Below are positions 12,058 to 31,779 of a stretch of DNA of 64,000 bases, piece after piece. The stretch spans positions 2,225,758-2,289,757 of the forward strand of contig NZ_CTDZ01000009.1 in NCBI RefSeq assembly GCF_001375555.1, given 5' to 3'. The notes under the pieces were generated by a model. It ran no database searches. It saw only the letters and a list, made by a program, of their open reading frames with translations, and was not told the DNA's origin. Numbering within the stretch: position 1 is the first letter of the stretch; each line of letters starts with the position of its first letter. The position numbers were made by a program, and so were the translations under genes. This stretch comes from Numidum massiliense. GTDB lineage: Bacteria > Bacillota > Bacilli > Thermoactinomycetales > Novibacillaceae.

Positions 12058-13308
12058 TTACGCTTCGCCCATATCAACACGAATTTGCACCGTACGATCA
12101 ACCTCTTGGCAGCGGTTTATAGCTTCCTGTACGTTAGTCCCTCTAGCCACAACCCACCCAAAACGATCATACGATTCCCTTAAGCGATGTACGTAATCTC
12201 CACGTTTAACCCCTATATTAAGTTCGACAACTCCTTCTAGATGCTTAACGTCATCCTCTCCAGAAACCTCTTGAACGATGCCCTCACGCGTCGTAAAAAA
12301 ATGGATCGCCGATCCACCCTGAATTTGTGGTGAAGTCTCCAATGGTTCCACAAGCCCACAGGGCCACCCGAGCGTCATTTCTTTCATATCGACACCGTAT
12401 GCGAGACGGACTAACTCGTTAATGCGATCGCCCCCGGGGCGATCGTGAGACTCTACGATCCTCGGCCCTTTATGCGTGAGCTTAATTTCTGTATGCGCCG
12501 GACCTTCTGCGAAGGTTACTGCATCGAGGAACGTATGGACAAGGTTAACGACGAGATCGTACGTCTCCTTATCAAGTTGTGCGGGAATTGAGTGGCCAAT
12601 TTCCACCGCGTCTAGTGTTCGCTTATCGGTAACTGCTAATATCACGTGTCTTCCGTGAAATGTAAACGATTCTACGCTGATCTCCGGACCGTCGAGATAC
12701 TCTTCTAGCAAGAACGGCGATATTTTCAAGGCTTGTATCTGCCGCCATATATCCTTTAACTGCACGGTATCATCTACACGGAATACGCCAAAACTACCCG
12801 CTTCCGCCGTCGGCTTAATTACAAATGGCGTGCCATGAGTATCCCCGAAAGCGATGATATCTTCCAGCGTGTGACCAACTCGAGCAGCGACGGGACTGAT
12901 CCCTAGCGTATTTAATTTCTGCCGCATAAGGGATTTATCCTTAAGGAGCTGTACGGTTTTCGTTGAATTACCGGATAACCCTAATGCATCACGCACATGT
13001 GCGGCAGGAACAAGCGCATCCTCACTCATTGAGAGTGCACATGTAAACGGAAAGATAGTCTGTAACGTCTTCGCGATTGGAATGAGGACATTATTGTCTC
13101 TGTAATCAATTAGAACAACCTTATCGACGTAGTCTAACAACATATCATTGAATTTATTCTTTTGTTGAATGTAGAGGACTTCTAAATCGAGAGACTTGGC
13201 CTTTTGCAATGTCTCCAGCGCCTCCCGCCCTCCGCCGATGTAAAGGATTCGCTTTCCCGACGACATTTTGCCGCATTCCCCTTCCGAATGATTGGTTTCA
13301 CAACACAT
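12058..13308 (-). CDS. ATP-grasp ligase, last gene of the biosynthetic operon
   Basis: Up to 416 residues. An N-terminal Rossmann-like domain (KRILYIGGGREALETLQKA) precedes an ATP-grasp domain: the ATP-lysine motif GTPFVIKPTAEAGSFGV, FLLEEYLDGPEISVESFT, and the metal ligands EGPAHTEIKLT...GPRIVESHDRPGGDRI. This is the BacD/carboxylate-amine ligase branch, which activates a carboxylate as acyl phosphate and joins it to an amine. The start could be ATG 13308 (GGGGA eight bases upstream) or ATG 13266. It is a paralogue of the other ATP-grasp protein at 18225-19433 (same Cys-rich start region absent there). Together they suggest two peptide-bond-forming steps; the substrates are inferred to be products of the upstream enzymes. 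Confidence 0.82.
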   Translation of the reverse strand: MCCETNHSEGECGKMSSGKRILYIGGGREALETLQKAKSLDLEVLYIQQKNKFNDMLLDYVDKVVLIDYRDNNVLIPIAKTLQTIFPFTCALSMSEDALVPAAHVRDALGLSGNSTKTVQLLKDKSLMRQKLNTLGISPVAARVGHTLEDIIAFGDTHGTPFVIKPTAEAGSFGVFRVDDTVQLKDIWRQIQALKISPFLLEEYLDGPEISVESFTFHGRHVILAVTDKRTLDAVEIGHSIPAQLDKETYDLVVNLVHTFLDAVTFAEGPAHTEIKLTHKGPRIVESHDRPGGDRINELVRLAYGVDMKEMTLGWPCGLVEPLETSPQIQGGSAIHFFTTREGIVQEVSGEDDVKHLEGVVELNIGVKRGDYVHRLRESYDRFGWVVARGTNVQEAINRCQEVDRTVQIRVDMGEA

Positions 13309-13371: not shown

Positions 13372-14730
13372 TTATTCTGTGTATAAAGAAGGTTCTTTCT
13401 GTACGACATAGTTCGGACGTTCCAAACCGAGGTTCTCGCGCAACGTCGTCCCCTCGTAATCTTCGCGAAACAACCCGCGATTCTGTAATTCGGGTACAAC
13501 CATTTCTACAAAATCTGTTAGGCCGTCCGGCAGGTAGGGTGGCATAATGTTAAACCCATCTGCCGCACCGTTAACGAACCAATCCTCTAACTCGTCTGCA
13601 ATAGTCTGTGGCGTTCCCAAAATAAAACGATGCCCACGAGAACCCGTAACAGAGAGATAGAGCTGGCGGATGGTCAATCCTTCGCGACGCGCTTGTTCGT
13701 AAATAAGTTTTTGGCGGCTCGTACTCCCCTCTGTTTCAGGCAACTCGGGTAGCGGACCGTCCAGCGGATATTGCGAAATATCCACGTCGCCTAACAATCC
13801 CGTAAGTAAACCGAGTCCGACAACTGGGTCGACCAAATCCTGCAACGTCCTATACTTTTCCTCCGCTTCGGCTTTCGTCCGACCGATGACGGGAAATACA
13901 CCCGGAAGGATCTTCACTTGATCTGGCGAACGACCGTAATTTGCGGCCTGTTTTTTCATGTTACTGTAAAACGTTTGCGCCTGTTCAAGAGTCTGGTGAG
14001 CTGTAAATACTACCTCTGCCCAACGTGCGGCGAAATCTTGTCCATCTTTCGACGCGCCTGCTTGTACAATTACCGGATATCCCTGCGGGGGGCGCGCCAC
14101 ATTTAACGGTCCACGGACAGAAAAAAATTCACCCTTATGGTTTAAAATATGTAGCTTCTTCGGATCAAAGTAACGCCCAGATTGTTTGTTGTATAGAAAG
14201 GCATCGTCTTCCCAACTGTCCCACAATCCAGTGACAACCTCCATAAATTCCCGTGCCCGCCGATACCTCGTCCTATGTGTCGGCTGCTTGTCTAGGTTGA
14301 AATTTTGTGCCTCTACGTCCGTAACAGAAGTGACGACGTTCCACCCGGAGCGGCCACCGCTAAGGTAATCCAACGAGGCGAATTTGCGCGCAATGTGAAA
14401 CGGCTCGTTGTAAGTGGTCGAGGCGGTAGCGGCTAAGCCGATATGCTTAGTAACGACTGCGAGTGCCGACAGTAAAGTCAATGGTTCAAAGTGGACGATA
14501 CGCCCCCAGCGGCTTAACTCGTCTTCGTCTTTATAGTGGGTACGAATACCTACCCCGTCAGACAGAAAGACCATGTCGAACTTTCCGCGCTCCGCCGTCT
14601 GAACGAGTGAACGGTAATAATGAAAATCGAGTCCGCCATCGGGTTGCGCATTTGGGTGACGCCACGCCGCCACGTGGTGACCCGGAGCTGGTAGAAAAGC
14701 CCCCAGTTTGAGCATCCTTTGTTTTACCAT
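13372..14730 (-). CDS. Bacterial-luciferase-like FMNH2-dependent monooxygenase, NtaA/SnaA/DmoA family
   Basis: About 452 residues, the usual length for this family. Markers include HHVAAWRHPNAQPDGG near the N-terminus, ERGKFDMVFLSDG, TYNEPFHIARKFASLDYLSGGRSGWNVVTS (quoted in two parts: TYNEPFHIARKF and DYLSGGRSGWNVVTS), and YPVIVQAGASKDGQDFAA. The family uses reduced flavin and O2, supplied by a separate reductase, to oxidise C-N or C-S bonds or heteroatoms. I place the start at ATG 14730 because AAGGAG lies nine bases upstream. In this operon it probably tailors the amino acid or the peptide product. No flavin reductase gene is seen nearby. Confidence 0.88.
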   Translation of the reverse strand: MVKQRMLKLGAFLPAPGHHVAAWRHPNAQPDGGLDFHYYRSLVQTAERGKFDMVFLSDGVGIRTHYKDEDELSRWGRIVHFEPLTLLSALAVVTKHIGLAATASTTYNEPFHIARKFASLDYLSGGRSGWNVVTSVTDVEAQNFNLDKQPTHRTRYRRAREFMEVVTGLWDSWEDDAFLYNKQSGRYFDPKKLHILNHKGEFFSVRGPLNVARPPQGYPVIVQAGASKDGQDFAARWAEVVFTAHQTLEQAQTFYSNMKKQAANYGRSPDQVKILPGVFPVIGRTKAEAEEKYRTLQDLVDPVVGLGLLTGLLGDVDISQYPLDGPLPELPETEGSTSRQKLIYEQARREGLTIRQLYLSVTGSRGHRFILGTPQTIADELEDWFVNGAADGFNIMPPYLPDGLTDFVEMVVPELQNRGLFREDYEGTTLRENLGLERPNYVVQKEPSLYTE

Positions 14731-14853
14731 ACTTTTCAACTCCTTTTTAATAAACCCATTCGGCCACTGCTAGTCTGTCATCGCATCAACCGATCGATTA
14801 GAAACGTGCTCGCTCGTAACCGTGCAAGCGCTCCTAGTAAAAAAACAGTGCCA

Positions 14854-15816
14854 TTAAGACAGTACTCTTATAGGAGAGTCAGTTAGAAAGGCCTGTATGT
14901 TCTCCACTACTTCACGGTAATACGTCTGGTAATTCGCTTGCGACACATACCCGATATGCGGGGTACAAAGAACGTTAGGCAGCAAACGAAAGATATCGTT
15001 CTCCGGCAGAGGCTCCGTCTCGAACACATCAATGCCTGCACCGGCAATCCAGCGGTTTTGTAGCGCCTCTATGAGCGCCGCTCGATCGACAATGGACGCG
15101 CGCGACGTATTGATTAAATATGCCGAAGGGCGCATAAGCTTAAGTTCTGTAGCCCCGATCAAACCTCTCGTTCGTTCACTCAACTTAAGGTGGATCGAGA
15201 CAAAATCACTGCTCGCAAGCAATTCCTCTTTCGACGTGGCTAGGCTTACCCCTACGTCTTCAGCCCGTTCTTTAGTCAAATTTTCACTCCACGCGACGAC
15301 TTCCATGCCGAAGGCGAGACCGATACGCGCAACCTGACTACCAATCTTTCCAAGGCCGAGTAGCCCGAGTCGTTTACCATATAAATCCTCCCCAACCGTG
15401 CTTTGCCACGGACCATTGTGGCGTAAGGCATCATTTTCTTGTACGATATGGCGTGCAAGCCCGAGGATGAGTGCCCACGTTAACTCAGTCGGGGGCTGGG
15501 AACTACTTTTTGTCCCGCAAACGACGACACCGTGTGCAGCGGCAGCTGCCAAATCGATCGACGCATTGCGCATACCTGTTGTAATCAATAACTTTAGTTG
15601 CGGCAGACGCTTAAAAAGCGATGCGCGAAAAGGCGTTCTTTCCCGCATAATCACGACAATTTCACAGTCGTCAATCGCCTGTACGAGATCATCTTCCTTA
15701 TCAATATGTTTGTAAAAGGGTCTAACCTCTACTGTATCCGCAATCTTTGACCAATCGGCTACGGTTAATGCCACCTGCTGGTAATCATCCAATACCGCAC
15801 AGCGAAATTTTTTCAT
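14854..15816 (-). CDS. D-2-hydroxyacid dehydrogenase (NAD-dependent)
   Basis: 320 residues. The NAD-binding loop is LGLLGLGKIGSQVAR, and the catalytic triad is visible as Arg in NTSRASIVD, Glu in DVFETEPLPEND and His in CTPHIGYVS. The family interconverts 2-oxo acids and D-2-hydroxy acids. The ATG overlaps the stop of the upstream epimerase gene (ATGA), so the two are translationally coupled. In context it could reduce or oxidise a 2-oxo/2-hydroxy di- or tricarboxylate intermediate made by the citrate-synthase/aconitase-like pair; the direction and substrate are inference. Confidence 0.88.
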   Translation of the reverse strand: MKKFRCAVLDDYQQVALTVADWSKIADTVEVRPFYKHIDKEDDLVQAIDDCEIVVIMRERTPFRASLFKRLPQLKLLITTGMRNASIDLAAAAAHGVVVCGTKSSSQPPTELTWALILGLARHIVQENDALRHNGPWQSTVGEDLYGKRLGLLGLGKIGSQVARIGLAFGMEVVAWSENLTKERAEDVGVSLATSKEELLASSDFVSIHLKLSERTRGLIGATELKLMRPSAYLINTSRASIVDRAALIEALQNRWIAGAGIDVFETEPLPENDIFRLLPNVLCTPHIGYVSQANYQTYYREVVENIQAFLTDSPIRVLS

Positions 15817-16934
15817 TGTTGTTCTACCTCCGTTCGAGTTTTCCGATACTTCTCAGACTGCGTCGTCACACCGATTCCTGGCTTTTCCGGTAACAAAATC
15901 TGACCGCGTACAACGGTCATCCCACTGTAGGGATCATCGGACAAGTCGAGGTGTCCGTCAAGATCTAAGTAGTCGGCAAGCCCTGCCAGTTGCGCCATCG
16001 CTGTAATACCGACGACACTCTCTGTCTTACAGCCAAGCATAACTGCAAACCCTAAACGGCGCGCTAACCGTATCATTTCTAAGGCTCGACGTAAACCGCC
16101 GCACTTGAGAAGCTTGATATTAATAACGTCGGCACAATCTTTGACCCGCAGCACATCTTGAGGTCCGAAACAATCTTCGTCCACCACAATCGGAATCGGC
16201 GAATACTCGCGGACAACGCGTAAACACTCAAGTAAGCCAGCTCGAATGGGCTGCTCTAAAAGCTCCACACCGCATTCGTAGAATACTTCTGAGGCAGCAA
16301 CAGCCTCTTTGGCATCCTCCCAAGAGCCGTTGCCGTCGATCCAGATGCGACCGGCATACACGTCCCGAAGACGGCGAACGAGATGGACGTCATGCGCAGC
16401 TGTCAACTTGATTTTAAGAATCGGCCACTGTGCAAATTGCTGCACGCGTTCGATTAACTCTTGCTCATGCCTAACACCGACAGAGAGGCCAGTCGACGGC
16501 AACGGTAAACCGTCGAACCCCCATAATCGATGAAGGGGCAAACCGACGACCTTGCCGAGGAGGTCGTGAAGCGCCATGTCCACCGCAGCAACAACTGTTG
16601 GTTGCCCTGGCACAACGGCTTCGACCAGATCAAGAAGGTGCTCGATCTCAAAAGGTGTTGCGCCGCTGAAAAGTTTCGCACATTTGGCGAGCGCCTCCTG
16701 CACAGTATGGGCGTGCATGCCGTACTCTTTCGCAAAGACAGCGGTTCCTATCCCTACATACCGTTCCCAATGCAGATGAACGACCATCTGGCGAACGTTT
16801 GTCACACTTCCTTTGTTGCTGACAAACGGTTCATCGAGGTGTAGGTTCAATATATCGAGGGTCAGTTTTATAAGACTCACCTCCTCTCTAACTCTCTGTA
16901 GTCCCCCCACATGCATACATTCCCCCGTCGCCAT
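15813..16934 (-). CDS. Enolase-superfamily epimerase (dipeptide epimerase / MLE-like)
   Basis: Up to 373 residues with the mandelate-racemase/muconate-lactonizing fold. Catalytic residues are all visible: Lys-x-Lys in ILKIKLTAAHD, metal ligands Asp in WIDGNGSW, Glu in ELLEQPI and Asp in VVDEDCF, and the second acid/base Lys in NIKLLKCGGLRRA. This set matches L-Ala-D/L-Glu-type dipeptide epimerases, which invert the alpha carbon of a dipeptide residue. ATG 16934 is eight bases from the upstream stop. A strong GGAGGTGA lies further in, at about codon 18, with no canonical start at the right distance, so the start is uncertain. The gene supports a di- or tripeptide as the pathway product. Confidence 0.85.
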   Translation of the reverse strand: MATGECMHVGGLQRVREEVSLIKLTLDILNLHLDEPFVSNKGSVTNVRQMVVHLHWERYVGIGTAVFAKEYGMHAHTVQEALAKCAKLFSGATPFEIEHLLDLVEAVVPGQPTVVAAVDMALHDLLGKVVGLPLHRLWGFDGLPLPSTGLSVGVRHEQELIERVQQFAQWPILKIKLTAAHDVHLVRRLRDVYAGRIWIDGNGSWEDAKEAVAASEVFYECGVELLEQPIRAGLLECLRVVREYSPIPIVVDEDCFGPQDVLRVKDCADVINIKLLKCGGLRRALEMIRLARRLGFAVMLGCKTESVVGITAMAQLAGLADYLDLDGHLDLSDDPYSGMTVVRGQILLPEKPGIGVTTQSEKYRKTRTEVEQQ

Positions 16935-16941
16935 TCACAAC

Positions 16942-18228
16942 CTATCCTCTTCCCGTCGTCACATGCTTTCCTTGCGGGTGTTCCCCCAACAAGTTTGCTC
17001 CCAATACACGAGAAAGTCCGAATACGATCGCGATCGCTGTAAACGCTAAGCAAATACCGCCGCTTAGTATGAACGCCCACTCTAGAGAGAAGTCTAGTGT
17101 TTTAGAAACTAGTGGGACTAAAGCTGCTGCGGTAACCGACGTTAGCAAATTGCGCGCAGTGCCAATCCGACCTTTAATCGGCCGTCCTTGGACTCTGAGC
17201 TGCAAGGTAGTCATTAACACGGTCCAAGATATCGTGTTGCACGCACCTATTCCGAAAGTTAAACCTAACGTTAGCCATGTTTGATCGGTAAGACCTAGCA
17301 ACAGGAAACATACGGCTTGACCACCAACACCGATGACGACTGTCGTATGCGACCCCCAACGGTTCGTTAGCGGTGCAACTACGACAGCTGTCGCCATCGC
17401 GCCGACAGCGAAGGCGCCGTCCACGATTGAGAGCCAGTAAGCGCTACCGCCGTACCTTACTGCCACAAGTGGAACTAATACAAGATTGAACAAGATGACG
17501 GCAAGCGAGTCGACAGTGTTCAACATAAGGTGCCATCCGAGCCCAATTTCTCGCCGAAGAAGCAAGAAAAATTCACGCCATTCCTTTAGTAACTGTTTCC
17601 ATGAAATACGTGGTGACATGCCGGTTGCGCGTACTATCTCCGCATGGGGAACAGTGATGAAACTTATTGACACGGCAGAAAAAATAAATGTCACTCCATT
17701 TATCAAAAACGCAGCTGGTGCCCCCCAATAATGAATAACCACACCGGCCAAAGCGACACCCAACAGCTGTCCCCCTTGTAGACAAATATTCGAATAGCCG
17801 TTAAAACGGCCGAGTGACTCGCTCGACATCACTGCTGGCGCTAAAGCAAATGTTGCCGCGCGGTAAAAAGGTTGGGTCACTTTAATACTTAACGTCATCA
17901 GCATGATCCATAAAAACACATTGTGCGAAACGAGCATGGCCAGCGCAAAGCCGATTAACAATCCGCCGCGTATCAGTTCAACTTGGACACACGTACGTTT
18001 CGGATCGCTACGATCAACTTTAGGACCAGCGACCACTTGCATCAGGAAGCTGATGACTTGCTCAAAAATGATAACGGCACCAAAGGCGGCAACTGATCCC
18101 GTACTGTCGTACAGAAGCTTGCCGGTGGCAAGCGTATGCATCCCGTTTCCCACAGTCGTCACGAGTGTTGCGGCCAACAGCCAACGGCCAGCTGGGGGCA
18201 CGCCTAAACGGCCCGCAAACTTACTCAT
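16942..18228 (-). CDS. MFS exporter within the biosynthetic operon
   Basis: 428 residues with about twelve membrane segments, of the MFS_3/enterobactin-macrolide exporter type (GPKVDRSDPKRTCVQVELIRG is the cytoplasmic loop 2-3 motif region). Its ATG overlaps the stop of the upstream ATP-grasp gene by four bases. Co-translation with the ligase and epimerase suggests that it exports, and gives self-resistance to, the operon's product, as BacE does for bacilysin. Confidence 0.85.
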   Translation of the reverse strand: MSKFAGRLGVPPAGRWLLAATLVTTVGNGMHTLATGKLLYDSTGSVAAFGAVIIFEQVISFLMQVVAGPKVDRSDPKRTCVQVELIRGGLLIGFALAMLVSHNVFLWIMLMTLSIKVTQPFYRAATFALAPAVMSSESLGRFNGYSNICLQGGQLLGVALAGVVIHYWGAPAAFLINGVTFIFSAVSISFITVPHAEIVRATGMSPRISWKQLLKEWREFFLLLRREIGLGWHLMLNTVDSLAVILFNLVLVPLVAVRYGGSAYWLSIVDGAFAVGAMATAVVVAPLTNRWGSHTTVVIGVGGQAVCFLLLGLTDQTWLTLGLTFGIGACNTISWTVLMTTLQLRVQGRPIKGRIGTARNLLTSVTAAALVPLVSKTLDFSLEWAFILSGGICLAFTAIAIVFGLSRVLGANLLGEHPQGKHVTTGRG

Positions 18229-19433
18229 GATACGACAAACCTAAGATGTTCTGCCGCCTTTTGTGCACGTACCGTCGCCTCCGTACTCGTATCACCTACC
18301 GCAATGACACAAGCCCCTCGCGAAAACGAATCATAGGCCCCTTGCACTTTGGTCCCTAAATCTTGAAGTACTTCAACGCGCACGACGCCGGCCATCGACG
18401 AAGCGTCTTCTACTCTCTCGACCCGTTCGAGAGTTCCCATTCCCCGCGGTGTGACAAAATAGATGGCGGCGAATCGGTCTAATCGGCTGGGAACCTCATC
18501 AAACACCTGCTCTCCAGCAGTTTGCCGAATCCACAGCTCGTCGAGATCAGTGCCGCTCACCAATTGGATCAAATCGACAATACTGTCGCCTCCTAATCGC
18601 GCATGAGTTTCAACGATACGCGGGCCATCCCCCGTAAGAATAACCTCTGTGTGCGACGGCCCATTTTCCAAGCCTAGAACAGTGAGCGCACGTGTTACGA
18701 AATGCGCAATAAGCGTATGCGTGTCATCTGTAATGGGAGCTGGTAGACAGTGACCTGTTTCGACACTCGTTATAGGATCTTTAAATTTTTGTGTGACACA
18801 AACGACGCGGTGCCTGCCCCTTTCCGAGAATGCTTCGACACTGTATTCCTCACCCTCTAAAAATTTTTCTACGAGCATCCCATAACCCGGCGACCACGTG
18901 TTAAACCAATCGAGCGCAGCTGGAATTTCTCGACTGTTACGTACAATAGAAACTCCCAAACTACCGCGTCCATCTACAGGTTTTATCACGAGCGGATAGC
19001 CGTAATCTTCTCCGAATGCTGCGATTTCGTCGGGACTAGTAACGAGAAGTGAGGGGGTCGGATCTAGCCCATTTTCGCGCAACACCCGTCGCATCTCGTC
19101 CTTTTTCCCTATACGGCGAATAACTTCCGGTACGTGAAACGGAATCTGTAAGGCACGCGAAATAGTGGCTGCATATCCCTGAAACACTTCGTTGAATCCG
19201 CCTATGGCGTCAATAGGATCCGAACGGTGAATCATGTGTGCTGCCGCCACCCATTCCTCGACCGGTGCCGTCGCGGGCAACCCAACGAGACGATCGTAAA
19301 GGTTTAAACGGTTCGGCGTTTGAAGCTTCGACATCGGAATCAGCATGCTTAGCTTCATGCCTAACTGCTTCGCTTTAGCGTGCACTTGTCGTGACCTCCC
19401 GACAAGTAACATATGACAGGACATGGAGAACAC
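18225..19433 (-). CDS. ATP-grasp ligase (amino-acid/peptide ligase type)
   Basis: Up to 402 residues. The ATP-grasp core shows YGYPLVIKPVDGRGSLGVSI, MLVEKFLEGEEYSVEAFS, and the metal-binding segments NGPSHTEVILT and GPRIVETHARLGGDSIVDLI. The layout and motifs match those of the second ATP-grasp protein of this operon and of BacD-type L-amino-acid ligases. It probably makes an amide bond between a carboxylate intermediate and an amino acid. Two starts are possible: GTG 19433, three bases after AAAGGAG, or ATG 19424, twelve bases after it. The stop overlaps the start of the exporter gene. Confidence 0.83.
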   Translation of the reverse strand: MFSMSCHMLLVGRSRQVHAKAKQLGMKLSMLIPMSKLQTPNRLNLYDRLVGLPATAPVEEWVAAAHMIHRSDPIDAIGGFNEVFQGYAATISRALQIPFHVPEVIRRIGKKDEMRRVLRENGLDPTPSLLVTSPDEIAAFGEDYGYPLVIKPVDGRGSLGVSIVRNSREIPAALDWFNTWSPGYGMLVEKFLEGEEYSVEAFSERGRHRVVCVTQKFKDPITSVETGHCLPAPITDDTHTLIAHFVTRALTVLGLENGPSHTEVILTGDGPRIVETHARLGGDSIVDLIQLVSGTDLDELWIRQTAGEQVFDEVPSRLDRFAAIYFVTPRGMGTLERVERVEDASSMAGVVRVEVLQDLGTKVQGAYDSFSRGACVIAVGDTSTEATVRAQKAAEHLRFVVS

Positions 19434-19498: not shown

Positions 19499-20998
19499 TT
19501 ATGTGTTAAATAGCGCCCCGACAATCATACACGCTTGTCGGATCGTTAACTCCCGAAATCCTGCGGGCTCTACTGGGGTACTAAAGGTATGGCTTTCTCC
19601 CTCGTTCAAAATACCTTGCCGGGGGTAGAAACGATTAAGAAAGTATCTCGACAGCTTCCCCTCGTTATTTTGCAACCACTGCGCCACCACTCGTTCTACT
19701 TCTTGCATCATAAGATCCGACTGAGGAGAGAAAGGATCCGTCGACCGCTTCACTTCTCTAAACAATACCTCCAAACGTTCACGATCCCCAGCGTGGCAGT
19801 CTGTCGGACACAACGCGAAGATCACGACGGGCATGAGAACAATAAAGATAGGATCGACGGTTGAAAAATTCCTAATTATGGTCTGACAAATCTTTCGATA
19901 GCTCTTTATCGTAGATTTCTCATAAAAGTAGCCTCTCCTTTTGGGCGGATACCCTGCCATTGCCCGTGCTCCCCAGTGAAAATGCGGATTGAACGGTTGA
20001 GTCATTAATGCGCGCTCGATCGAATATCCCGGGTAGTGCGTACAGAAAATCGCCGAGAGGACACCGGTTAATACATTAGACATGATTGGAAGATAGTTCG
20101 GAAACTCCCTGATTCGATCGAAAAACACATTAGGCTCAGTTACGGCAAGATACGGTAGTATCGCGGCATCAACCAATTCCTCGGCATTTGCGTAATACGC
20201 CTTACCCATCCGATAACCGCGTCCCACACGCTGAAGATCCATACGCCGCATCCGCCCATCCAATGTGACCTGATGACTCAACAGATCCTGAAAAGCGCGC
20301 CGCGCGTTATTTTGATGAGCTGCTTCATCGAGTAATACGTGCAAAATTTCTTTGACAAATGCTTCGTTCTCACGTATTATCGACGCTTCCAAACGAAACG
20401 GAAATGTCCCCAACCGTTGCATCCGCCTCCAGTGAAACTCGGTAATCGAGATTAAATGGCCTCCGACTTCGGTCTGAACGAACGGTGTAAACAGCGGCTC
20501 TTCACGGCTACGCCTTACGAAATGGGTGCCATCCCACGTAAAGAGTGGCAATACTGTCCGTTGGCCATTTTCAACACTTGAGCCCGGAAGGTACACCCAA
20601 TCACCATGCTGCATGGCGGCATCTTCCGTTTGGTTAAAGCAGTAGATTAGCGGATACCCGTACCTTCCTGCACAGACAGACTTGTTAAAATCCATCATTC
20701 CCGCTCGTCCCCGCACAATCTCTTCCCAATTTCCCATATGTCCAGTGCGCGGTGGCAACAACTGTGGCGTATTGTGGATTAGGTCTAAAAGCTTCCCGAT
20801 CGTAACGTCTGTCGTTCCTAGATGAATCCATTCGAACGCACGTTTGCGCGTTCTGAATTGTTCTATTAAAGATGCCAGGGAATTCTCACGAAGGTTTTCT
20901 CTAGTAAGGGACAGTTCGGAAAGCAGTTGGACAGGCGTAACTGTACCAGGCTCCACAGCTTTCCTTGAGACTAGGTCTTCCTTTGCTCGGATTACCAT
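19499..20998 (-). CDS. Unrecognised 499-residue protein of the biosynthetic operon
   Basis: I do not recognise a family. The start ATGGTAA overlaps the stop of the aconitase-like gene, so it is translationally coupled and surely part of the pathway. The sequence is soluble-looking for the first 380 residues. A probable helix at 210-230 contains two closely spaced ExxH motifs (EILH 217-220, EAAH 225-228), the kind of motif used by non-haem di-iron enzymes, and a His/Trp-rich stretch (TEFHWRRMQR) precedes it. Residues 381-397 (VDPIFIVLMPVVIFALC) are hydrophobic and could be a membrane segment or buried helix. It could be an oxygenase, but the metal idea rests only on the motifs. Confidence 0.6.
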   Translation of the reverse strand: MVIRAKEDLVSRKAVEPGTVTPVQLLSELSLTRENLRENSLASLIEQFRTRKRAFEWIHLGTTDVTIGKLLDLIHNTPQLLPPRTGHMGNWEEIVRGRAGMMDFNKSVCAGRYGYPLIYCFNQTEDAAMQHGDWVYLPGSSVENGQRTVLPLFTWDGTHFVRRSREEPLFTPFVQTEVGGHLISITEFHWRRMQRLGTFPFRLEASIIRENEAFVKEILHVLLDEAAHQNNARRAFQDLLSHQVTLDGRMRRMDLQRVGRGYRMGKAYYANAEELVDAAILPYLAVTEPNVFFDRIREFPNYLPIMSNVLTGVLSAIFCTHYPGYSIERALMTQPFNPHFHWGARAMAGYPPKRRGYFYEKSTIKSYRKICQTIIRNFSTVDPIFIVLMPVVIFALCPTDCHAGDRERLEVLFREVKRSTDPFSPQSDLMMQEVERVVAQWLQNNEGKLSRYFLNRFYPRQGILNEGESHTFSTPVEPAGFRELTIRQACMIVGALFNT

Positions 20999-23754
20999 AC
21001 TGCAATCCCCTGATCCAAAGTTTCGTCCCGATTTTTCTTTGCGGTCAACAATTTTCGAACAACGAGATGGAGCAACCCGCCATGCTGGTAATATGTCAGT
21101 TCGCTTTCTGTGTCAATGCGCGCACGAACAGCAAAACGAACGATCTCCCCGTGAGTCTTCCGCGCCTCCACAATCACTTCTTCCCCTGGCTTAAGTGTTT
21201 CAACACCATTTATTTCATATATTTCCGTTCCGTCCAACCCGAGTGAGCGCCAACTTTCTCCCGAACGAAACTGCAGAGGGAGAACACCCATACAAATCAA
21301 GTTAGAACGATGAATACGCTCGAAGCTATTGGCTATGACAACGCGAACGCCAAGTAGACGTGGGCCTTTAGCGGCCCAATCTCGCGATGAACCCGCGCCG
21401 TACTCTTTACCCGCAAGAATAATTAGTGGGATATCGTCAGTAGCATATTGCATAGCAGCTTCGTATATGGTCATCATCCGGCCGGAAGGATGATGAATCG
21501 TCATTCCTCCCTCGACTCCCGGTAACAGCATGTTTTTCAAACGTATATTAGCCAGTGTACCTCGCATCATCACCTCGTGATTTCCCCGTCTGGCTCCATA
21601 CGTATTAAATGCAGTCGGTTTTACTCCGTACGCCGCCAGATAGTGACCAGCAGGACTAGTGGGGTCAATTGTTCCCCCTGGGGAAAGGTGATCAGTCGTT
21701 ATACTATCGCCTAATAAAGCGAGTACGCGTCCCCCTGAAATTGACTTCGGCGACGAAGCCGAATGAGTCATCGAGTCAAAATAGGGAGGCCTCTTAATAT
21801 ACGTGCAGTCTTTCTCCCAACTGAACAAATCGCTCTCCGGCGCGGAAATAGTCTCCCACTGCTCGGTCGCCCGAGAATCTTGTCGGTAGCGGTCGCGAAA
21901 CATACGTGGAGAAATGGATTTGTTCATCACAGAGGAAACCTCTTCGTCCGAAGGCCAGATATCGGAAAGGTATACCGGAACACCGTGCGTATCAGTGCCT
22001 AGCGGTTCGCGCGTGAGGTCGATCTTGACTGTACCCGCGATGGCGTATGCAATGACTAACGGCGGAGAGGCTAAATAATTCGCCCTAACTAGAGGGTGAA
22101 TCCGCCCTTCGAAATTGCGGTTACCACTAAGGATAGACGTCGCCACCAGATTATTCTCTTTTATTGCGGTAGCCAGTCGTGGATCCAGCGGCCCACTACT
22201 ACCGGAACAGGTCATACACCCGTAACCCGTCACATGGAATCCAAGTGTTTCCAGTGGCGAAATCAACCCTGCAGCCTTCAAATAATCGGTAACAACTTGT
22301 GATCCCGGAGAAAGACTAGTCTTTACATACGGCGGGACAGTCAGTCCCCGAGTCACAGCGCGACGCGCCAGCAGACCTGCCGCAATCATAACAGACGGGT
22401 TCGATGTATTCGTGCACGAAGTAATAGATGCAATTAAGATGGAGCCGTGGGTAAGAGTCACCGTACGGTCATCGAACGCCACATTCACCTTAATCGCACC
22501 GTCTCTATTCTCAGATGCTATTAAAGGTGCATAAGTTGTCGTAAGTGTGCGAGAAAATGACGTTTTCAGCTCTTGAACCGATACGCGTTGTTGAGGCTTG
22601 GCGGGACCGGAAACGCTCGGTACAACCTTAGTTAAATCGAACGTCACGAGCTTGTTGAAAATAGGGAGCGGTTCTTCGTTATGACAAAACAAGCCTTGAA
22701 ACTTGTAGTAGCGGTCCACGAGCTGAACTAGCGACTCAGGGCGTCCAGTGGCGCGCAAGTAGCGCAACGTCTCTTCGTCTACTGGAAAATAAGCCGAAGT
22801 AGCTCCATATTCCGGAGCCATATTGGCAATTGTCGCTCGCTCAGCAAGACTTAATGCGCGTACTCCTTCGCCGCAGAACTCCACAAACTGATCGACAACG
22901 CCTTCCTGGCGGAGTCGTTCCGCTACGGACAACACCAGATCAGTAGTCGTAACCCCCGGCCTCAAGCGGCCAACTAGCTTTACACCGACCACAGGGGGAC
23001 GCAGGAGCATGAACGGATGGCCCAGCATGGCGGCCTCTGCTTCAATACCGCCAACTCCCCACCCTAATACACCGAGACCGTTAATCATCGTTGTATGACT
23101 ATCTGTGCCACAGACGCTGTCAGGAAATGCGGTCAATATACCGTCACGCTCTTGTACCCGTACGACCGTAGCGAGGTTCTCTAAATTTACCTGATGGACA
23201 ATTCCTGTGCCAGGAGGAAAAACTCTCAGGCCTTGAAACGCTCGTTCCCCCCAACGCAATAACTTAAAGCGTTCTCGATTCTGTACAAATTCTTGCTCTG
23301 TGTTATACTGCAATGCTTTTGTACACGCGGCTACGTCCACCTGAATTGAATGGTCGACAACCACATCAGTTGGTAACACAGGGCTGACTAGTGCTGGGTC
23401 GCCCCCAAGCTTCTTCACCGCTTCACGCATTGCCGCTAAATCTACAATGACCGGAACGCCAGTATAGTCTTGTAAGAGCACACGGGCGGGCAAGTACGGC
23501 ATAACGACTTGTTCTTCCCCTCCGGCAAGTGCACGAAGCGTCGCATCTGCCGTATCCACACTTGCAAATCTAGCCGTAACAGAACGCAAAAACGCCTCCA
23601 TTAGCAGTCTGATCGAATAAGGCACTCGCGAGAGTTGCAGACCGAGTCGATTCTCTAAACGTTTGAGAGACCAAATGTTATACTGCTTTCCCGCAAATTC
23701 CATTGGAACACATACCCCGAGTGGATCTTTTACAATGTTTTTCAACGGTCTCAC
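20992..23754 (-). CDS. Aconitase-family hydro-lyase (AcnA-like) in the biosynthetic operon
   Basis: 920 residues, the size and domain order of AcnA/IRP-type aconitases including the swivelling C-terminal domain. DSHTTMINGLGVLGWGVGG, the cluster Cys residues in SCTNTSNPS and GCMTCSGSSGPL, and the catalytic Ser region KEYGAGSSRDWAAKG are present. Near the active site it departs from ordinary aconitases (usual TTCIGNSG and SNLVGMGVLP read here as MTCSGSSG and SNLICMGVLP), which suggests an altered substrate. It should move a hydroxyl group within a citrate-like tricarboxylate by dehydration and rehydration, with a [4Fe-4S] cluster. GTGA overlap with the adenylation gene indicates coupling. It may isomerise the product of the carrier-citrate-synthase fusion, as phosphinomethylmalate isomerase does in phosphinothricin biosynthesis. 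Confidence 0.87.
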   Translation of the reverse strand: MRPLKNIVKDPLGVCVPMEFAGKQYNIWSLKRLENRLGLQLSRVPYSIRLLMEAFLRSVTARFASVDTADATLRALAGGEEQVVMPYLPARVLLQDYTGVPVIVDLAAMREAVKKLGGDPALVSPVLPTDVVVDHSIQVDVAACTKALQYNTEQEFVQNRERFKLLRWGERAFQGLRVFPPGTGIVHQVNLENLATVVRVQERDGILTAFPDSVCGTDSHTTMINGLGVLGWGVGGIEAEAAMLGHPFMLLRPPVVGVKLVGRLRPGVTTTDLVLSVAERLRQEGVVDQFVEFCGEGVRALSLAERATIANMAPEYGATSAYFPVDEETLRYLRATGRPESLVQLVDRYYKFQGLFCHNEEPLPIFNKLVTFDLTKVVPSVSGPAKPQQRVSVQELKTSFSRTLTTTYAPLIASENRDGAIKVNVAFDDRTVTLTHGSILIASITSCTNTSNPSVMIAAGLLARRAVTRGLTVPPYVKTSLSPGSQVVTDYLKAAGLISPLETLGFHVTGYGCMTCSGSSGPLDPRLATAIKENNLVATSILSGNRNFEGRIHPLVRANYLASPPLVIAYAIAGTVKIDLTREPLGTDTHGVPVYLSDIWPSDEEVSSVMNKSISPRMFRDRYRQDSRATEQWETISAPESDLFSWEKDCTYIKRPPYFDSMTHSASSPKSISGGRVLALLGDSITTDHLSPGGTIDPTSPAGHYLAAYGVKPTAFNTYGARRGNHEVMMRGTLANIRLKNMLLPGVEGGMTIHHPSGRMMTIYEAAMQYATDDIPLIILAGKEYGAGSSRDWAAKGPRLLGVRVVIANSFERIHRSNLICMGVLPLQFRSGESWRSLGLDGTEIYEINGVETLKPGEEVIVEARKTHGEIVRFAVRARIDTESELTYYQHGGLLHLVVRKLLTAKKNRDETLDQGIAVW

Positions 23755-25391
23755 CCCTGAATCTCACCTGCTTCAAGGCGACGTAGTAGTTCTTTACGGT
23801 CCACTTTTCCGTTAGCATTCAACGGCATATCTTCAACAATATAGATACTCCGCGGTACCATATAGTTCGGCACCTTTTCCCGTGCTGCTTCAATAAGTGT
23901 TGTAGCGTTCACTTCGGGGCTAGCAATGACAAAAGCAACGATTCCTTTCGCTGTTCCATTTTCAACCGGCCAACTTAAAGCCACCGCCGAAAACACTCCG
24001 TGTTGTTGCGATAGCACACCTTCAATTTCACTCAACTCTATCCGATAACCTTGTATCTGTACTTGATGATCGATCCGCCCCATATACGCAAGATTACCGC
24101 TAGATAGATAGCGAACGCGATCGCCCGTTCGATAATACTCTTTTACCTCCCCGGACGCCTGTTTAATCCGGACGGTACGCTGTTTGGTTTGTTCCGGGTT
24201 GCGCCAGTAACCGGGGAAGGTCTGTGGTCCAGCCACACATAATTCCCCTTCGGAACCACGAGGCACAGGTTCAAGATTTTCATCGAGTAAGCACGCATCG
24301 AGTCCGGGATAAAGTTGACCGATAGGAACGATATCGTTGACACACTCTTTTGGGGACTCTATTGGATGCCAGCGGTACGCTGTGCAGGCAATCGTCAGCT
24401 CGGTAGGGCCGTAAAGGTTTTCAATGACTGAATGTGGTGCCGCTACTTGCCAGGCTTCCGCAGTCGCTCTCGGGAGTGCCTCTCCACAGAAAAGGCTCAA
24501 ACGCAAACTCGAAAGACTATTCGGTTTTAAGAGGTTTTGCTTACGGAGCAATGCGGCAACAGACGGTACGGAAAACCACACAGTAATACCTTTGTCTCGT
24601 ACGTAGCGAAACGGTGACAACAGTTCAATCGGTTGTATCACGCAAACGGCAGCCCCTCCTCCCCAGGCCATGAAAAGGTCAAACACGGAGAGATCGAACG
24701 TCTGGTCAAACGTTTGTGTCAAACGATCTTCAGGTGTGATCTGGTAACGCTGCTGATTGATCGAGATAAAGTGACTGACATTGGAATGGGTGATTGGCAC
24801 ACCTTTTGGCACGCCTGTACTACCCGAAGTGAATAACAGATAAGCCATTGCCTCTGAAGAAATAACGGGTAGCCCCTCGACGGGGACAGCATACTCTACA
24901 TCTAGTCGATCCCGAATTTCAACTGCAACGTGGGGAAAATCCTCTTTGTGCGAATCTGGCAAGAGGATGCAATAAGGAAGCCGTCGCAAATCTTTGACGA
25001 TCTCGTAAAACTGTGGCAGAGAAGCTTTATCTACAATTAACGCGTCGAGCTCTGCCTGCTCGATCATCGCACGCGTCCGCTGTGTAGGAAAAGTGCGATT
25101 TAGCGGAACGAATGCAGCACCGGAAAACAAGCTTGCCAATACCCCTATGTAAGACACCTCACTTCGATAAGCAAATATACCGATCCTTCTAGGTGCAGCA
25201 TGCATACTATTGCGAATGACGAACGCCCAACGTCGAGCGATGTCATCGATTTCGGCGTATGTCCATTCACGGTTAGCGATCGTTAATGCCAAGGCATCGG
25301 GGTAACGTTCAACGCTAGAAAGAAAACCAGCATGAAGTAAGGTACTTGAAGTACGTATTGCTAAAGGACGACTGGATCGAATATGTGCCAT
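23751..25391 (-). CDS. Stand-alone NRPS-type adenylation enzyme
   Basis: 546 residues. All adenylation core motifs are readable: A3 LLFTSGSTGVPKGVPITHSN, A4 FDLSVFDLFM, A5 NLYGPTELTIACT, A7 YRTGDRVRYL, A8 GRIDHQVQIQGYRIEL and A10 PLNANGKVDR. No condensation, carrier or thioesterase domain is attached. The Asp of the FDLS motif is retained, so the substrate should be an alpha-amino acid. My by-eye pocket reading is D-L-F-S-L-C-L-I-A-K, which suggests a small side chain but is tentative. The ATG has AAGGAGGGG upstream. It probably loads the carrier domain of the neighbouring citrate-synthase fusion, the only carrier protein in the operon. Confidence 0.9.
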   Translation of the reverse strand: MAHIRSSRPLAIRTSSTLLHAGFLSSVERYPDALALTIANREWTYAEIDDIARRWAFVIRNSMHAAPRRIGIFAYRSEVSYIGVLASLFSGAAFVPLNRTFPTQRTRAMIEQAELDALIVDKASLPQFYEIVKDLRRLPYCILLPDSHKEDFPHVAVEIRDRLDVEYAVPVEGLPVISSEAMAYLLFTSGSTGVPKGVPITHSNVSHFISINQQRYQITPEDRLTQTFDQTFDLSVFDLFMAWGGGAAVCVIQPIELLSPFRYVRDKGITVWFSVPSVAALLRKQNLLKPNSLSSLRLSLFCGEALPRATAEAWQVAAPHSVIENLYGPTELTIACTAYRWHPIESPKECVNDIVPIGQLYPGLDACLLDENLEPVPRGSEGELCVAGPQTFPGYWRNPEQTKQRTVRIKQASGEVKEYYRTGDRVRYLSSGNLAYMGRIDHQVQIQGYRIELSEIEGVLSQQHGVFSAVALSWPVENGTAKGIVAFVIASPEVNATTLIEAAREKVPNYMVPRSIYIVEDMPLNANGKVDRKELLRRLEAGEIQG

Positions 25392-25472: not shown

Positions 25473-27038
25473 TTAGCTGGACTTGCGGCCTCTAGTGTCC
25501 CGTTGATCAATCGGCAGATAAGGGGAATCTGTCTCCCCTACATACTGAAGAAGCGGTCTAATGAGAATGTTATTCTCGAACTGTTCTTTTACCTGAGAGA
25601 TCCAGCCAGGCATCCGACCAATCGCGAATGCTGCGACAAAAAGATCTTGTGGAATCCCAAGTAGATGGTAGATAATACTTGCATAAAAATCGACATTGAC
25701 GTCGACACCTTTTTTTACGTACGATCGCATCGCATTAACTACCGCTTCTAATATGTCGTACCACTTCTTTTCTCCCAACTGTACACTTAACTCGTAAGCC
25801 GCCTGCCGCAAATGCCGAGCCCGTGGATCCTCCGTCTGATATACCCGGTGACCAAAGCCCATGATCGGCTCGTTCTTAGATTGAAGACGTGCGACATACT
25901 CAGCGGCACGATCTGGTTCGCCAATTTCCTGAACCATGGTGAGAACATTCTCGATGGCTCCCCCGTGAAGCGAACCGGCAAAAGCAGCAATAGCAGCTGT
26001 TAGCGTGGCGTACAGATCGGAGCGTGTACCCGCTACGACCCGAGCAGCGAATGCCGAAGCATTCGATCCGTGATCAGCATGTAGGATAAGGATTTTGTCT
26101 ATGGTTTGGACCGCTCGCTCGTTAGGAATCTCACCGTGAATCATATACAAGAAGTTGGCTGCATGGGAAAGTGTAGGGCTAGGTAGTAGAGGCTGTTTAC
26201 CACGGCGAATGGCTTGGTGAGCAGCCACCAATGTCGGTATTTGGGCAATGAGGCGAATAGCCTTTTGCTGTAGCGATTTGGCCGAGTTATCACCCCGATG
26301 GACATCAAAGGTTGCTAAGGCAGAAACTGCCGTTCGAAGGACTTCCATTGGATGAGCATGTTGCACCATACGGATAACTTCAAGGATTGGGGCCGGTACC
26401 GACCGGGCTGCCTTTAATTCGCTATCGAAGCCGTTAAGCTCCTCGCGATTAGGTAACGCGCCATAAAGAAGAAGGTATGCTGTTTCTTCAAAAGTTGAAT
26501 GGGCTACTAAGTCGTGGATGGAGTACCCTCTGTAAAGGAGTTTACCCTGCCGATCGACTAATGTCGTACGCGTTCGATCAAAAATGACTCCAGCAAGCCC
26601 ACGACAAATAGTCGTTGCATCATGGGTTCCCGTGAATACCTCTTTCACTGCAATACGATTCCCCGTCGACTCAAGCTGAGGGGAGGACTCCGCCTCGCTA
26701 TTCATTGATGCAACGTTCGCTATCCCCACATATTCACGCCCTTCATTGCCCCGATCATAACTTTCTTCCCGATGAGAGACATGTTGTTGCACAAAGGCGC
26801 GAATAGCTGCTACACTATTAAGTTCAACGATTGTGTCAGCGTCTAGTGGAACACCGTATTCCTTCTCGAGGGCTATCATAAGATTGACATGCGCCAAGGA
26901 ATCCCATGCCATAATTGATCGATACGCCAAGTCATCGGTAATTTGATCCTCCGGAACTTGGAGTACGTGTGCAATTAACGTCTCAACCCCCCTTATTTTT
27001 CTACTTTGCCCCTCTTTACAAATTTCCCCTCTTTTCAT
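25473..27038 (-). CDS. Carrier protein-citrate synthase fusion
   Basis: 521 residues. Residues about 15-90 form a phosphopantetheine carrier domain: LIAHVLQVPEDQI, then AWDSLAHVNLM with the modifiable Ser47 in the D-S-L motif, then EKEYGVPLD. A 40-residue linker leads to a complete citrate synthase (residues about 133-515). The catalytic residues are present: His358 in GSLHGGA, His397 in GFGHRVY and Asp450 in NVDFYA. Canonical GPLHGGANE reads here GSLHGGAIE. The obvious reading is that an acyl or aminoacyl group tethered to the carrier replaces acetyl-CoA as the nucleophile in an aldol-type condensation with a 2-oxo acid. I know of no described enzyme with this architecture. It is the first large gene of the operon. 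The ATG at 27038 has a GGGAG 12 bases upstream, overlapping the end of a small upstream frame. Confidence 0.88.
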   Translation of the reverse strand: MKRGEICKEGQSRKIRGVETLIAHVLQVPEDQITDDLAYRSIMAWDSLAHVNLMIALEKEYGVPLDADTIVELNSVAAIRAFVQQHVSHREESYDRGNEGREYVGIANVASMNSEAESSPQLESTGNRIAVKEVFTGTHDATTICRGLAGVIFDRTRTTLVDRQGKLLYRGYSIHDLVAHSTFEETAYLLLYGALPNREELNGFDSELKAARSVPAPILEVIRMVQHAHPMEVLRTAVSALATFDVHRGDNSAKSLQQKAIRLIAQIPTLVAAHQAIRRGKQPLLPSPTLSHAANFLYMIHGEIPNERAVQTIDKILILHADHGSNASAFAARVVAGTRSDLYATLTAAIAAFAGSLHGGAIENVLTMVQEIGEPDRAAEYVARLQSKNEPIMGFGHRVYQTEDPRARHLRQAAYELSVQLGEKKWYDILEAVVNAMRSYVKKGVDVNVDFYASIIYHLLGIPQDLFVAAFAIGRMPGWISQVKEQFENNILIRPLLQYVGETDSPYLPIDQRDTRGRKSS

Positions 27039-27248: not shown

Positions 27249-27671
27249 AAGCTAATTCGACAACAAATCGCAAATTCCTGCCCATTTCATGAATTTTTTT
27301 ATCTCGTTTGAGTTTGTAACCTTGATGACGATAGTAGTATTGTAGAATGACTAAATATAGCTCTTTTAAAAGAATTACCTCATTAGGAAAATACCCTCTA
27401 TGTTTGGGCTAATTCCTTTTACAATAAATTTGCAGTGGTTCGAACCGGACAATCAACGCATCGATCACCCTTAATCACCCTTTTGCTTCTCTTGGGTTGT
27501 TCTGGACCAATTTGGATGGTTGCCTTTTTGAAGTGATGACTGTTGAGTCATTATTGGGATGTGTTCAGCCTTCTTTCCTTTATTTTGGAAGGGCTTTGTT
27601 CTAGGCAAATATATCACCCCCTTCTATAATTAATTATAGGGTAGAAAATTTACAAATAGGAGGTGAACACT
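27249..27671. other. Divergent intergenic region between the biosynthetic and PTS operons
   Basis: 423 bp without a convincing gene; it must hold the promoters of both operons. It contains the perfect palindrome at 27624-27639. A minus-strand frame around 27420-27520 reads ...GPEQPKRSKRVIKGDRC..., with no start and no family, probably a shadow or a remnant. Confidence 0.5.
27624..27639. promoter_or_regulatory. 16-bp perfect palindrome, probable promoter/operator of the PTS regulator operon
   Basis: CTATAATTAATTATAG contains a TATAAT on each strand and ends 32 bp before the TTG start of the PRD regulator. It can act as a -10 element in either direction or as an operator overlapping it. No good -35 at 17 bp spacing was found. 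Confidence 0.45.
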
Positions 27672-29648: not shown

Positions 29649-30111
29649 AACTGAAAATAAATTGAAGCAATTACTGACGAAGGAACGTATGCTACATCTT
29701 CAAGCGGTGTCCTCATGGGAGCAGGCGGTCGACCTTGCGTGTGAACCGCTTTTAAATGAAGGATCGATTAGTGACCTATATGTAACGAACATCAAAAAAA
29801 ACGTAAAAGAAAATGGCCCCTATATGGTTCTCGCCGATTACTTCGCCTTGATGCATGCTAAAGCTGGTGAAGGCGTCAACGAACTGTCCATGTCACTGTT
29901 AATTGTGGACGAAGAGGTAGATCTCGTAGGGGTTCCTGTGAAGCTCTTTCTCATCTTGGCCGCCGAGGACAGCCGCACTCATATCGATGCATTAGCAGAT
30001 ATTACTACCTTATTAATGGATCAGGCATCATTTAATACATTTCTAAACGGAGACATTGAACAAATTTCGCGATTAATTGAAACCAATGTGAAGGGAGGTG
30101 ATCAATCGTGA
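29641..30111 (+). CDS. PTS EIIA component, ascorbate (Ula) type
   Basis: 156 residues of the PTS EIIA type-2 family, closest in pattern to UlaC. The phosphorylated His is in YFALMHAKAGEGVNE. It passes phosphate from HPr to the EIIB encoded next. ATG 29641 has AAAGGAG nine bases upstream; the frame is open further left but those codons lie inside the regulator gene. The stop overlaps the GTG start of the EIIB gene. Confidence 0.88.
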   Translation: MAETENKLKQLLTKERMLHLQAVSSWEQAVDLACEPLLNEGSISDLYVTNIKKNVKENGPYMVLADYFALMHAKAGEGVNELSMSLLIVDEEVDLVGVPVKLFLILAAEDSRTHIDALADITTLLMDQASFNTFLNGDIEQISRLIETNVKGGDQS

Positions 30112-30386: not shown

Positions 30387-30408
30387 CGTGCAAGTAGCAG
30401 GATGATGT

Positions 30409-30463: not shown

Positions 30464-30490
30464 AACACAATATACAAGGAGGCGTTTGAA

Positions 30491-31770: not shown

Positions 31771-31779
31771 GGTGTGATC

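Follow-up and report, generated by a model that had tools for sequence, protein, structure and literature searches.

A protein of 521 amino acids encoded in a 64,000-nucleotide stretch of the Numidum massiliense genome (assembly GCF_001375555.1, contig NZ_CTDZ01000009.1, forward-strand positions 2,225,758 to 2,289,757; this whole stretch is called the window below) joins a phosphopantetheine carrier domain to a citrate synthase. On balance we favor the view that this fusion takes glycine, held as a thioester on its own carrier, as the enolate donor and oxaloacetate as the acceptor, which would yield 2-aminocitrate; that the donor is some aminoacyl group on the carrier, whichever the amino acid, appears likely at the very least. 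An earlier sequence-only reading of the window had proposed a carrier-bound aminoacyl nucleophile, and independent lines of sequence evidence make this the best-supported reading, although their support is inferential, the loss of the coenzyme A (CoA) site being deduced from the loss of residues.

A carrier domain fused to a citrate synthase

The fusion is encoded on the minus strand, from 27038 down to 25473, and the plus-strand reading of this interval is full of stops. The sequence-only reading had placed the open reading frame at exactly these coordinates without giving a strand, and its claim of a carrier domain fused to a citrate synthase is borne out by the Pfam models for the two parts, PF00550 (PP-binding; 30.1 bits at residues 18-82, above the cut-off of 20.8, E = 5.9e-07) and PF00285 (Citrate_synt; residues 147-495, E = 1.3e-123, 413 bits against a cut-off of 27), the synthase domain extending to about residue 513 in alignments with homologs. 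These two families alone were reported at E ≤ 0.001, with no match to the HpcH/HpaI family of citrate lyase. The best NCBIfam model was TIGR01800, which describes the methylcitrate/citrate synthase II subfamily and whose cut-off was only just passed (427.4, cut-off 421.3), and among the best 25 of 29 NCBIfam families the protein fell below the cut-offs of the citrate and methylcitrate synthase equivalogs (PRK14034, 387.9 against 594; PRK12351, 301.3 against 550). In an AlphaFold model the carrier domain is helical and most of the synthase core is predicted with confidence; Foldseek matches this core to citrate synthases of Thermus and others. Residues 89-156 have low confidence in the model, which matches the expectation for a flexible tether. 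Ser47, the serine that the sequence-only reading had picked out as the carrier motif, is found within the sequence AWDSLAHV.

Conservation of the fusion and its gene cluster

The fusion belongs to a ten-gene operon (Table 1) that includes a protein of the family DUF6025, through which related clusters were found. DUF6025 is rare: of 398 genomes sampled from the phylum only the window's own has it, and of 398 sampled from the class four do, these including the window's own and one remnant. A scan of genome contigs with two short peptide patterns matched 89 stretches, of which 7 were confirmed, and will surely have missed relatives. The seven loci come from Herpetosiphon aurantiacus, Paenibacillus sambharensis, Thermoactinomyces, Metabacillus iocasae, Rossellomorea vietnamensis, and metagenome-assembled genomes (MAGs) of a Lysobacteraceae and a Hyphomicrobiaceae bacterium. 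DUF6025 was also found on two Vibrio tubiashii plasmid records, one of which was taken into the comparison, and in an additional locus (L031) from a member of the class. Together with the window these make ten loci, which span Bacillota, Chloroflexota, and Gamma- and Alphaproteobacteria.

Because nine of the ten loci were found through DUF6025, its presence in all of them follows from how they were gathered. Neither the fusion nor the adenylation enzyme encoded next to it was selected for, and both are present in 10/10. The occurrence of the same fusion with the same carrier serine in every locus shows that it is no frameshift, assembly accident or chance joining, and the serine and its WDS motif are kept throughout, although one carrier domain is just 19/71 identical to the window's. 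A gene was counted as present where the fetched stretch of a locus contained a match to its counterpart in the window, and in the Lysobacteraceae MAG the cluster is split over two contigs (L013 and L034), with the fusion in L020. The core of the cluster consists of the adenylation enzyme (the loader), the carrier-synthase and DUF6025, usually with an aconitase, and the capping and tailoring genes vary. The flavin mononucleotide (FMN) monooxygenase is the most conserved gene, with 68-80% identity in seven loci, and the D-2-hydroxyacid dehydrogenase is present in five: the window, the Vibrio plasmid (L005), Herpetosiphon (L008), Thermoactinomyces (L010) and the Lysobacteraceae MAG (L013).

Host genomes were also searched for further copies of the citrate synthase and the aconitase. 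Another citrate synthase besides the fusion was found in all eight host genomes searched, and a second full-length aconitase in all seven genomes whose cluster copy sits on one contig; the Hyphomicrobiaceae MAG has two aconitase pieces outside its cluster. The N. massiliense genome itself encodes two further citrate synthases (43% and 37% identical to the fusion) and one further aconitase, so the cluster copies look dedicated.

When 398 genomes of the class were scanned with the fusion (E ≤ 1e-104), 28 genomes were listed, and only the window's and G771, apparently the same contig as the Thermoactinomyces locus and counted once, scored clearly above ordinary synthases. A known fused copy in G679 is missing from these 28, so fusions without DUF6025 could have escaped the scan. 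A scan of IMG/VR with a single DUF6025 protein gave no match, the exact peptide patterns used being suited to close relatives only. Two Streptomyces plasmid synthases (L006, L007) were considered as relatives and rejected; no other cluster gene matched there.

Individual loci show further variation. Plasmid p251 of V. tubiashii, a shellfish-associated Vibrio, carries all ten genes in a different order at 9407-23597, nine of them 34-42% identical to the window's and the monooxygenase 68%. In L031, a SelA-like pyridoxal phosphate (PLP) enzyme (5248-6366) stands in the operon between the carrier-synthase and the adenylation enzyme. L014 encodes a leucyl/phenylalanyl-tRNA protein transferase homolog (11406-12203) and has no ATP-grasp match on its fetched stretch, which suggests tRNA-dependent capping of the same warhead. 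PhzF-family genes flank the cluster in Herpetosiphon (2940-3842) and in the Lysobacteraceae MAG (L013, 7622-8560), and the Herpetosiphon locus also has an RraA-like gene at 20198-20818. The remnant mentioned above (L032, genome G415), kept out of all counts, consists of a 71-residue DUF6025 fragment (contig 169023-169235, locus 14023-14235) about 60 bases from a dehydrogenase gene (13006-13965) whose product is 73% identical to the window's; it is apparently a decayed copy of the cluster.

Acceptor and donor sites of the synthase domain

The ten fusions were compared with 15 ordinary synthases, drawn partly from the same genomes and partly from others. In a midpoint-rooted tree a branch with support of 100/99 separates the fusions from the ordinary enzymes, some long branches, including that of the Vibrio copy, being flagged. 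The catalytic residues His358, His397 and Asp450 stand where the sequence-only reading had put them and are invariant in all ten fusions. The oxaloacetate residues His323, Arg406 and Arg494 are likewise kept in 10/10, and Arg475 in 9/10. The roles of these residues are taken from solved synthases, as described in the available text of PMC6386500 and PMC4601594. Given their conservation, the acceptor is very probably oxaloacetate or a close analog.

The donor side appears to have changed. The sequence-only reading had pointed to an alteration of GPLHGGANE to GSLHGGAIE, and the window's protein does read GSLHGGAIE, but only the loss of Asn is a hallmark of the group: the residue after HGGA (position 362 in the numbering used here) is Asn in 15/15 ordinary synthases and in the fusions Ile (8), Val (1) or Ala (1), whereas the Pro of GPLH varies among the fusions (Pro in 3/10, Ser in 2/10). 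Leu353 is equally invariant in the ordinary synthases and is replaced by Phe in every fusion. Four basic positions have also been lost nearly throughout: Lys389 (12/15 ordinary synthases versus 1/10 fusions), Lys or Arg at 391 (12/15, versus Pro in 10/10), Arg or Lys at 491 (14/15, versus Ile in 9/10) and Arg496 (12/15 versus 1/10). Positions 389 and 391 fall just ahead of the MGFGHRVY loop; the equivalent loop of the pig enzyme contacts CoA. These losses fit a donor that would be held by a tether and not through the phosphates of CoA. In the Lysobacteraceae fusion (L020), GGAAE replaces GGAIE; this change and the substitution of Arg475 in the same protein are either real divergence or sequence error.

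Predicted substrate of the adenylation enzyme

The amino acid adenylation enzyme that the sequence-only reading had noted next door is confirmed by TIGR01733, the amino acid subfamily model (348.8 bits against a cut-off of 317.4). With PP-binding confined to the fusion among the ten proteins of the window's cluster, where no second such domain was found, the fusion is the loader's only visible partner within that cluster. Pocket positions were placed by motif and are given in GrsA numbering. The ten-position pocket reads DLFFLCLIAK in seven loci, the other three differing at one position each; Asp235, Leu236, Phe239, Phe278, Cys301, Leu322 and Lys517 are present in 10/10, Asp235 being the residue for the amino group of the substrate.

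The solved structures that match the loader core are, in order, 8k4r, IdnL7 (6akd) and AlmE (4oxi), the last with the aligned pocket DLHLFCLIA. According to the available text of PMC11253843, AlmE activates glycine, and its L248 and C316 at the alpha carbon keep out D-amino acids and the larger L-amino acids, a role that mutagenesis has verified; IdnL7 accepts Gly, Ala or Ser, and C217, A285 and T318 are named there as responsible. Leu236 and Cys301 of the loader correspond to the AlmE glycine pair in 10/10 loci. The loader differs from AlmE at positions 239, 278 and 299 and from IdnL7 at 236, 301 and 331; because these last three are the positions named as deciding the range of IdnL7, and the loader equals AlmE at all of them, AlmE is the favored template. 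With AlmE-like residues at the deciding positions, glycine is the best prediction, and from the pocket we favor it quite clearly over other small amino acids.

Weighing of alternatives

Carrier-bound glycine as the donor has to be set against readings in which another group sits on the carrier or the carrier has another role. The same logic could run with L-alanine, L-serine or another small amino acid, and the product would be an alpha-substituted amino-citrate. IdnL7, which takes Ala and Ser as well as Gly, matches the loader at as many pocket positions as AlmE does, and the D-alanine enzyme DltA, which likewise matches it, has a pocket that includes a Leu/Cys pair, as the available text of PMC11253843 describes; but IdnL7 has Cys and Ala where all ten loaders have the AlmE pair, and the pocket of a citrate synthase would probably allow a quaternary center to form less readily, so that we regard another amino acid as unlikely without being negligible. 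N-citryl-glycine, not free citrate, would arise if acetyl-CoA were still used to form citryl-CoA and the carrier-bound glycine intercepted it as an amine. The catalytic residues are intact, a glycine-type loader is present, and aminoacyl carriers normally serve to form amides, yet the four basic positions of the CoA-using synthases are nearly gone, residues 353 and 362, fixed in the ordinary enzymes, are changed in every fusion, and a free tricarboxylate would better suit the cluster's aconitase; this makes N-citryl-glycine improbable.

A shade less probable again is a carrier that holds acetyl or another simple acyl group, giving plain citrate or an alkyl-citrate precursor, while the adenylation enzyme serves some other carrier. 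The scoring of the synthase domain in the methylcitrate/citrate synthase II subfamily would accord with this, as would citrate lyase, from which a carrier-bound acetyl group with oxaloacetate as partner is known. The scan of the window's cluster, however, found no other carrier there, the loader is of the amino acid type with Asp235 in all ten loci, and the eight host genomes searched already have another citrate synthase. That the protein is an ordinary citrate synthase whose carrier domain is a vestige or serves regulation seems very improbable: its catalytic and nearly all its oxaloacetate residues are kept, but so are the serine and WDS motif, even in the carrier that is just 19/71 identical to the window's, the synthase part has changes specific to the group, and the fusion stands beside the adenylation gene in every locus.

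Several observations weigh against the reading with glycyl-carrier as donor. The template comparison is a tie, the loader matching AlmE and IdnL7 at 6/9 variable positions each, and 8k4r, the best-scoring solved chain, has Cys where the loader has Asp235, so close relatives of the loader can have other substrates. The loss of CoA binding is deduced from basic residues, not from a structurally mapped site; one fusion keeps the Arg at position 496, the loss is weak at position 259 (Lys in 12/15 ordinary synthases, basic in 4/10 fusions), and the Lysobacteraceae fusion has Gly at the oxaloacetate residue Arg475. The model of the fusion is a monomer of moderate quality (predicted local distance difference test score, pLDDT, of 72). 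The downstream scheme is not universal either: the aconitase is present in 9/10 loci, with none on the fetched stretch of L014, and the monooxygenase and the enolase-type enzyme in 8/10, L014 and L031 lacking both. Finally, a second aconitase was not found in the Lysobacteraceae MAG, where only two pieces of the cluster copy were seen.

Predicted pathway

From these lines of evidence we infer a route whose loading, condensation, hydrolysis, order of steps and product are all predictions. A phosphopantetheinyl transferase would arm Ser47; the N. massiliense genome has two genes of this family, with frames of 123 and 253 codons, which by their size would be AcpS-like and Sfp-like, respectively. 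The adenylation enzyme would activate glycine and load it onto the carrier arm of the fusion, whose synthase domain would bind oxaloacetate as ordinary synthases do. Asp450 with His358 would then deprotonate the glycyl alpha carbon, the resulting enolate would add to the oxaloacetate carbonyl with the help of His397, and hydrolysis of the thioester would free 2-aminocitrate (1-amino-2-hydroxypropane-1,2,3-tricarboxylate). The cluster's aconitase could shift or remove the hydroxyl group to give amino-aconitate or amino-isocitrate, and DUF6025 would carry out a core step.

The aconitase of the window's cluster scores well within its family (TIGR01341, 1224 against a cut-off of 945) and keeps the three Fe-S cysteines and the Ser/Arg motif (SCTNTSN, GCMTC, GSSRDWAAKG). 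Beside the Fe-S cysteines, in the stretch GCxTC-IGN-SG, IGN is found in 7/7 other copies and is SGS in 7/8 and NGG in 1/8 cluster copies, a count that excludes partial pieces from the Lysobacteraceae and Hyphomicrobiaceae MAGs (L053, L054, L062, L063). The simplest reason for the altered stretch would be a changed substrate.

The unusual amino acid would be finished by tailoring enzymes that vary among loci, the enolase-superfamily enzyme and the FMN monooxygenase, sometimes with the D-2-hydroxyacid dehydrogenase, which would suit a 2R alcohol. Among solved structures the monooxygenase comes closest to 7e36, an oxidoreductase of the nitrilotriacetate monooxygenase family, and then to YtnJ; the enolase-type enzyme comes closest to a muconate cycloisomerase and then to dipeptide epimerases. 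ATP-grasp ligases would cap the product with amino acids, and a pump of the major facilitator superfamily (MFS) would export it. The LAL_C2 domains of the ligases, together with the MFS transporter in the window, make a small exported peptide the likely product of the cluster, probably an antimetabolite.

DUF6025 had no recognizable relative in the sequence, structure and profile searches made. Its model (pLDDT 78, built from 8 sequences) gave no significant Foldseek match, with 0 at E 0.001 among the 80 matches listed, and VIA gave weak matches to BshC (Z 5.9, root mean square deviation 16.3), to class I lysyl-tRNA synthetase (Z 5.6, root mean square deviation 5.8) and to several other class I tRNA synthetases. 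The protein has a GHxGN motif reminiscent of HIGH. These weak matches and the motif suggested a fold like that of aminoacyl-tRNA synthetases; a profile comparison with six BshC and four methionyl-tRNA synthetase sequences gave it no support (probability ≤ 0.3%).

Relation to known systems

The fusion shares its fold, catalytic His/His/Asp and oxaloacetate residues with the dimeric citrate and 2-methylcitrate synthases (Thermus 1ixe/1iom, Mycobacterium tuberculosis 3hwk), from which it differs in its N-terminal carrier, its separate group in the tree, the Ile, Val or Ala in place of Asn after HGGA, the four lost Lys/Arg positions and its location in a biosynthetic cluster. AlmE/AlmF, which serve lipid A glycylation in Vibrio cholerae, likewise pair a stand-alone glycine-type adenylation enzyme having the Leu/Cys pair with a carrier that it loads; in the present system the carrier forms one protein with a citrate synthase, and glycine would react through its alpha carbon instead of its carboxyl group. 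The IdnL7/VinM-type enzymes (6akd, 8k4r) are the best-scoring single-domain solved relatives of the loader, and IdnL7 shares 6/9 pocket positions with it; they differ in having Cys/Ala in place of Leu/Cys (IdnL7) and in the absence of Asp235 (8k4r).

The sequence-only reading had called the reaction unprecedented for a citrate synthase. This holds for the family, in which no reaction of this kind was previously described as far as checked, and not beyond it. In citrate lyase (CitD/CitE), acetyl and citryl groups are carried on a phosphopantetheine-type arm with oxaloacetate as the partner; that enzyme works in the lyase direction, belongs to the unrelated HpcH/HpaI family and handles acetyl and not aminoacyl groups. 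Condensing enzymes borrowed from central metabolism to make a special acid or amino acid are also known from FrbC/FrbA of the FR-900098 pathway and from the belactosin/cystargolide cassettes, and in the phosphonate case an aconitase-like enzyme accompanies the condensing enzyme. These pathways use enzymes of the isopropylmalate/homocitrate synthase type with acyl-CoA, not a carrier-fused citrate synthase. The special amino acid of alahopcin has the six-carbon skeleton that glycine and oxaloacetate would give and is capped with alanine; no link to the present cluster is shown here. Alahopcin is a cyclic hydroxamic acid natural product, and a dipeptide according to the title of its structure paper as cited in the available part of PMC9712658.

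In the open-licence literature searched, no description of DUF6025 or of a carrier-fused citrate synthase cluster was found, and the one paper located for aminocitrate and related compounds concerns a phosphonic bioisostere assayed on a penicillin-binding protein (available text of PMC6268044). Matlystatin/actinonin (PMC5719088) and lydiamycin (PMC12130866) were considered as pathways that might share enzymes with the cluster and were dropped, their main texts containing neither citrate nor aconitase.

If the prediction holds, the citrate synthase family, among the most thoroughly studied in biochemistry, has a branch that uses an aminoacyl-carrier instead of acetyl-CoA. Densely functional, beta-branched alpha-amino acids would then be accessible by a cofactor-free route, and DUF6025 would be the handle on an unstudied family of peptide clusters in at least three phyla. 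The broader picture, in which a PLP-independent carbon-carbon bond at the glycine alpha carbon and a shadow of the first steps of the tricarboxylic acid (TCA) cycle, made up of the carrier-synthase, the altered aconitase and in some loci a D-2-hydroxyacid dehydrogenase, supply amino analogs of TCA acids for exported antimetabolite peptides across distant bacteria, seems to us evenly balanced between right and wrong. Two purified proteins, ATP, glycine and oxaloacetate suffice to test the core claim.

The operon and its surroundings

The ten genes of the window's cluster run on the minus strand from 27038 to 12058 (Table 1). They are tightly packed, with four overlapping junctions: adenylation enzyme/aconitase, aconitase/DUF6025, ATP-grasp ligase/MFS transporter and enolase-type enzyme/dehydrogenase.

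Table 1. Genes of the carrier-synthase operon in the window, in order of transcription (coordinates by first start codon).
Feature	Position	Strand	Remarks
Acyl carrier protein-citrate synthase fusion	25473..27038	minus	521 aa; carrier 18-82 with Ser47, linker ~89-156, synthase ~147-495
Stand-alone amino acid adenylation enzyme, predicted glycine-activating	23751..25391	minus	pocket DLFFLCLIAK, TIGR01733
AcnA-type aconitase, second genome copy	20992..23754	minus	GCxTC-IGN-SG changed to GCMTC-SGS-SG
DUF6025 protein	19499..20998	minus	PF19490
ATP-grasp ligase with L-amino acid ligase C-terminal domain LAL_C2	18225..19433	minus	Pfam
MFS transporter, presumed exporter	16942..18228	minus	Pfam
Enolase-superfamily enzyme	15813..16934	minus	nearest solved relatives muconate cycloisomerase, dipeptide epimerases
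D-2-hydroxyacid dehydrogenase	14854..15816	minus	Pfam, NCBIfam
NtaA/DmoA-family FMN monooxygenase	13372..14739	minus	NCBIfam
Second ATP-grasp ligase (LAL_C2)	12058..13308	minus	Pfam

A perfect inverted repeat of 13 pairs at 13323-13356, in the gap that separates the monooxygenase gene from the second ATP-grasp gene, is possibly an intra-operon terminator or attenuator; over the region as a whole, terminator-like matches are at the level of shuffled sequence (15 found, 16.0 expected). Divergent from the cluster, at 27663-32520, lies a phosphotransferase sugar operon encoding a PRD/EIIA/EIIB regulator, an EIIC-GAT permease and a SIS-domain protein. An LXG-domain protein at 35502-36980 is a candidate polymorphic toxin of the type VII secretion type, and BREX phage-defense genes occupy 39731-59024 on the minus strand, among them genes for a PglZ-domain protein (39731-42379), an Eco57I/MmeI-type methylase (51708-55199) and BrxC (55242-59024).

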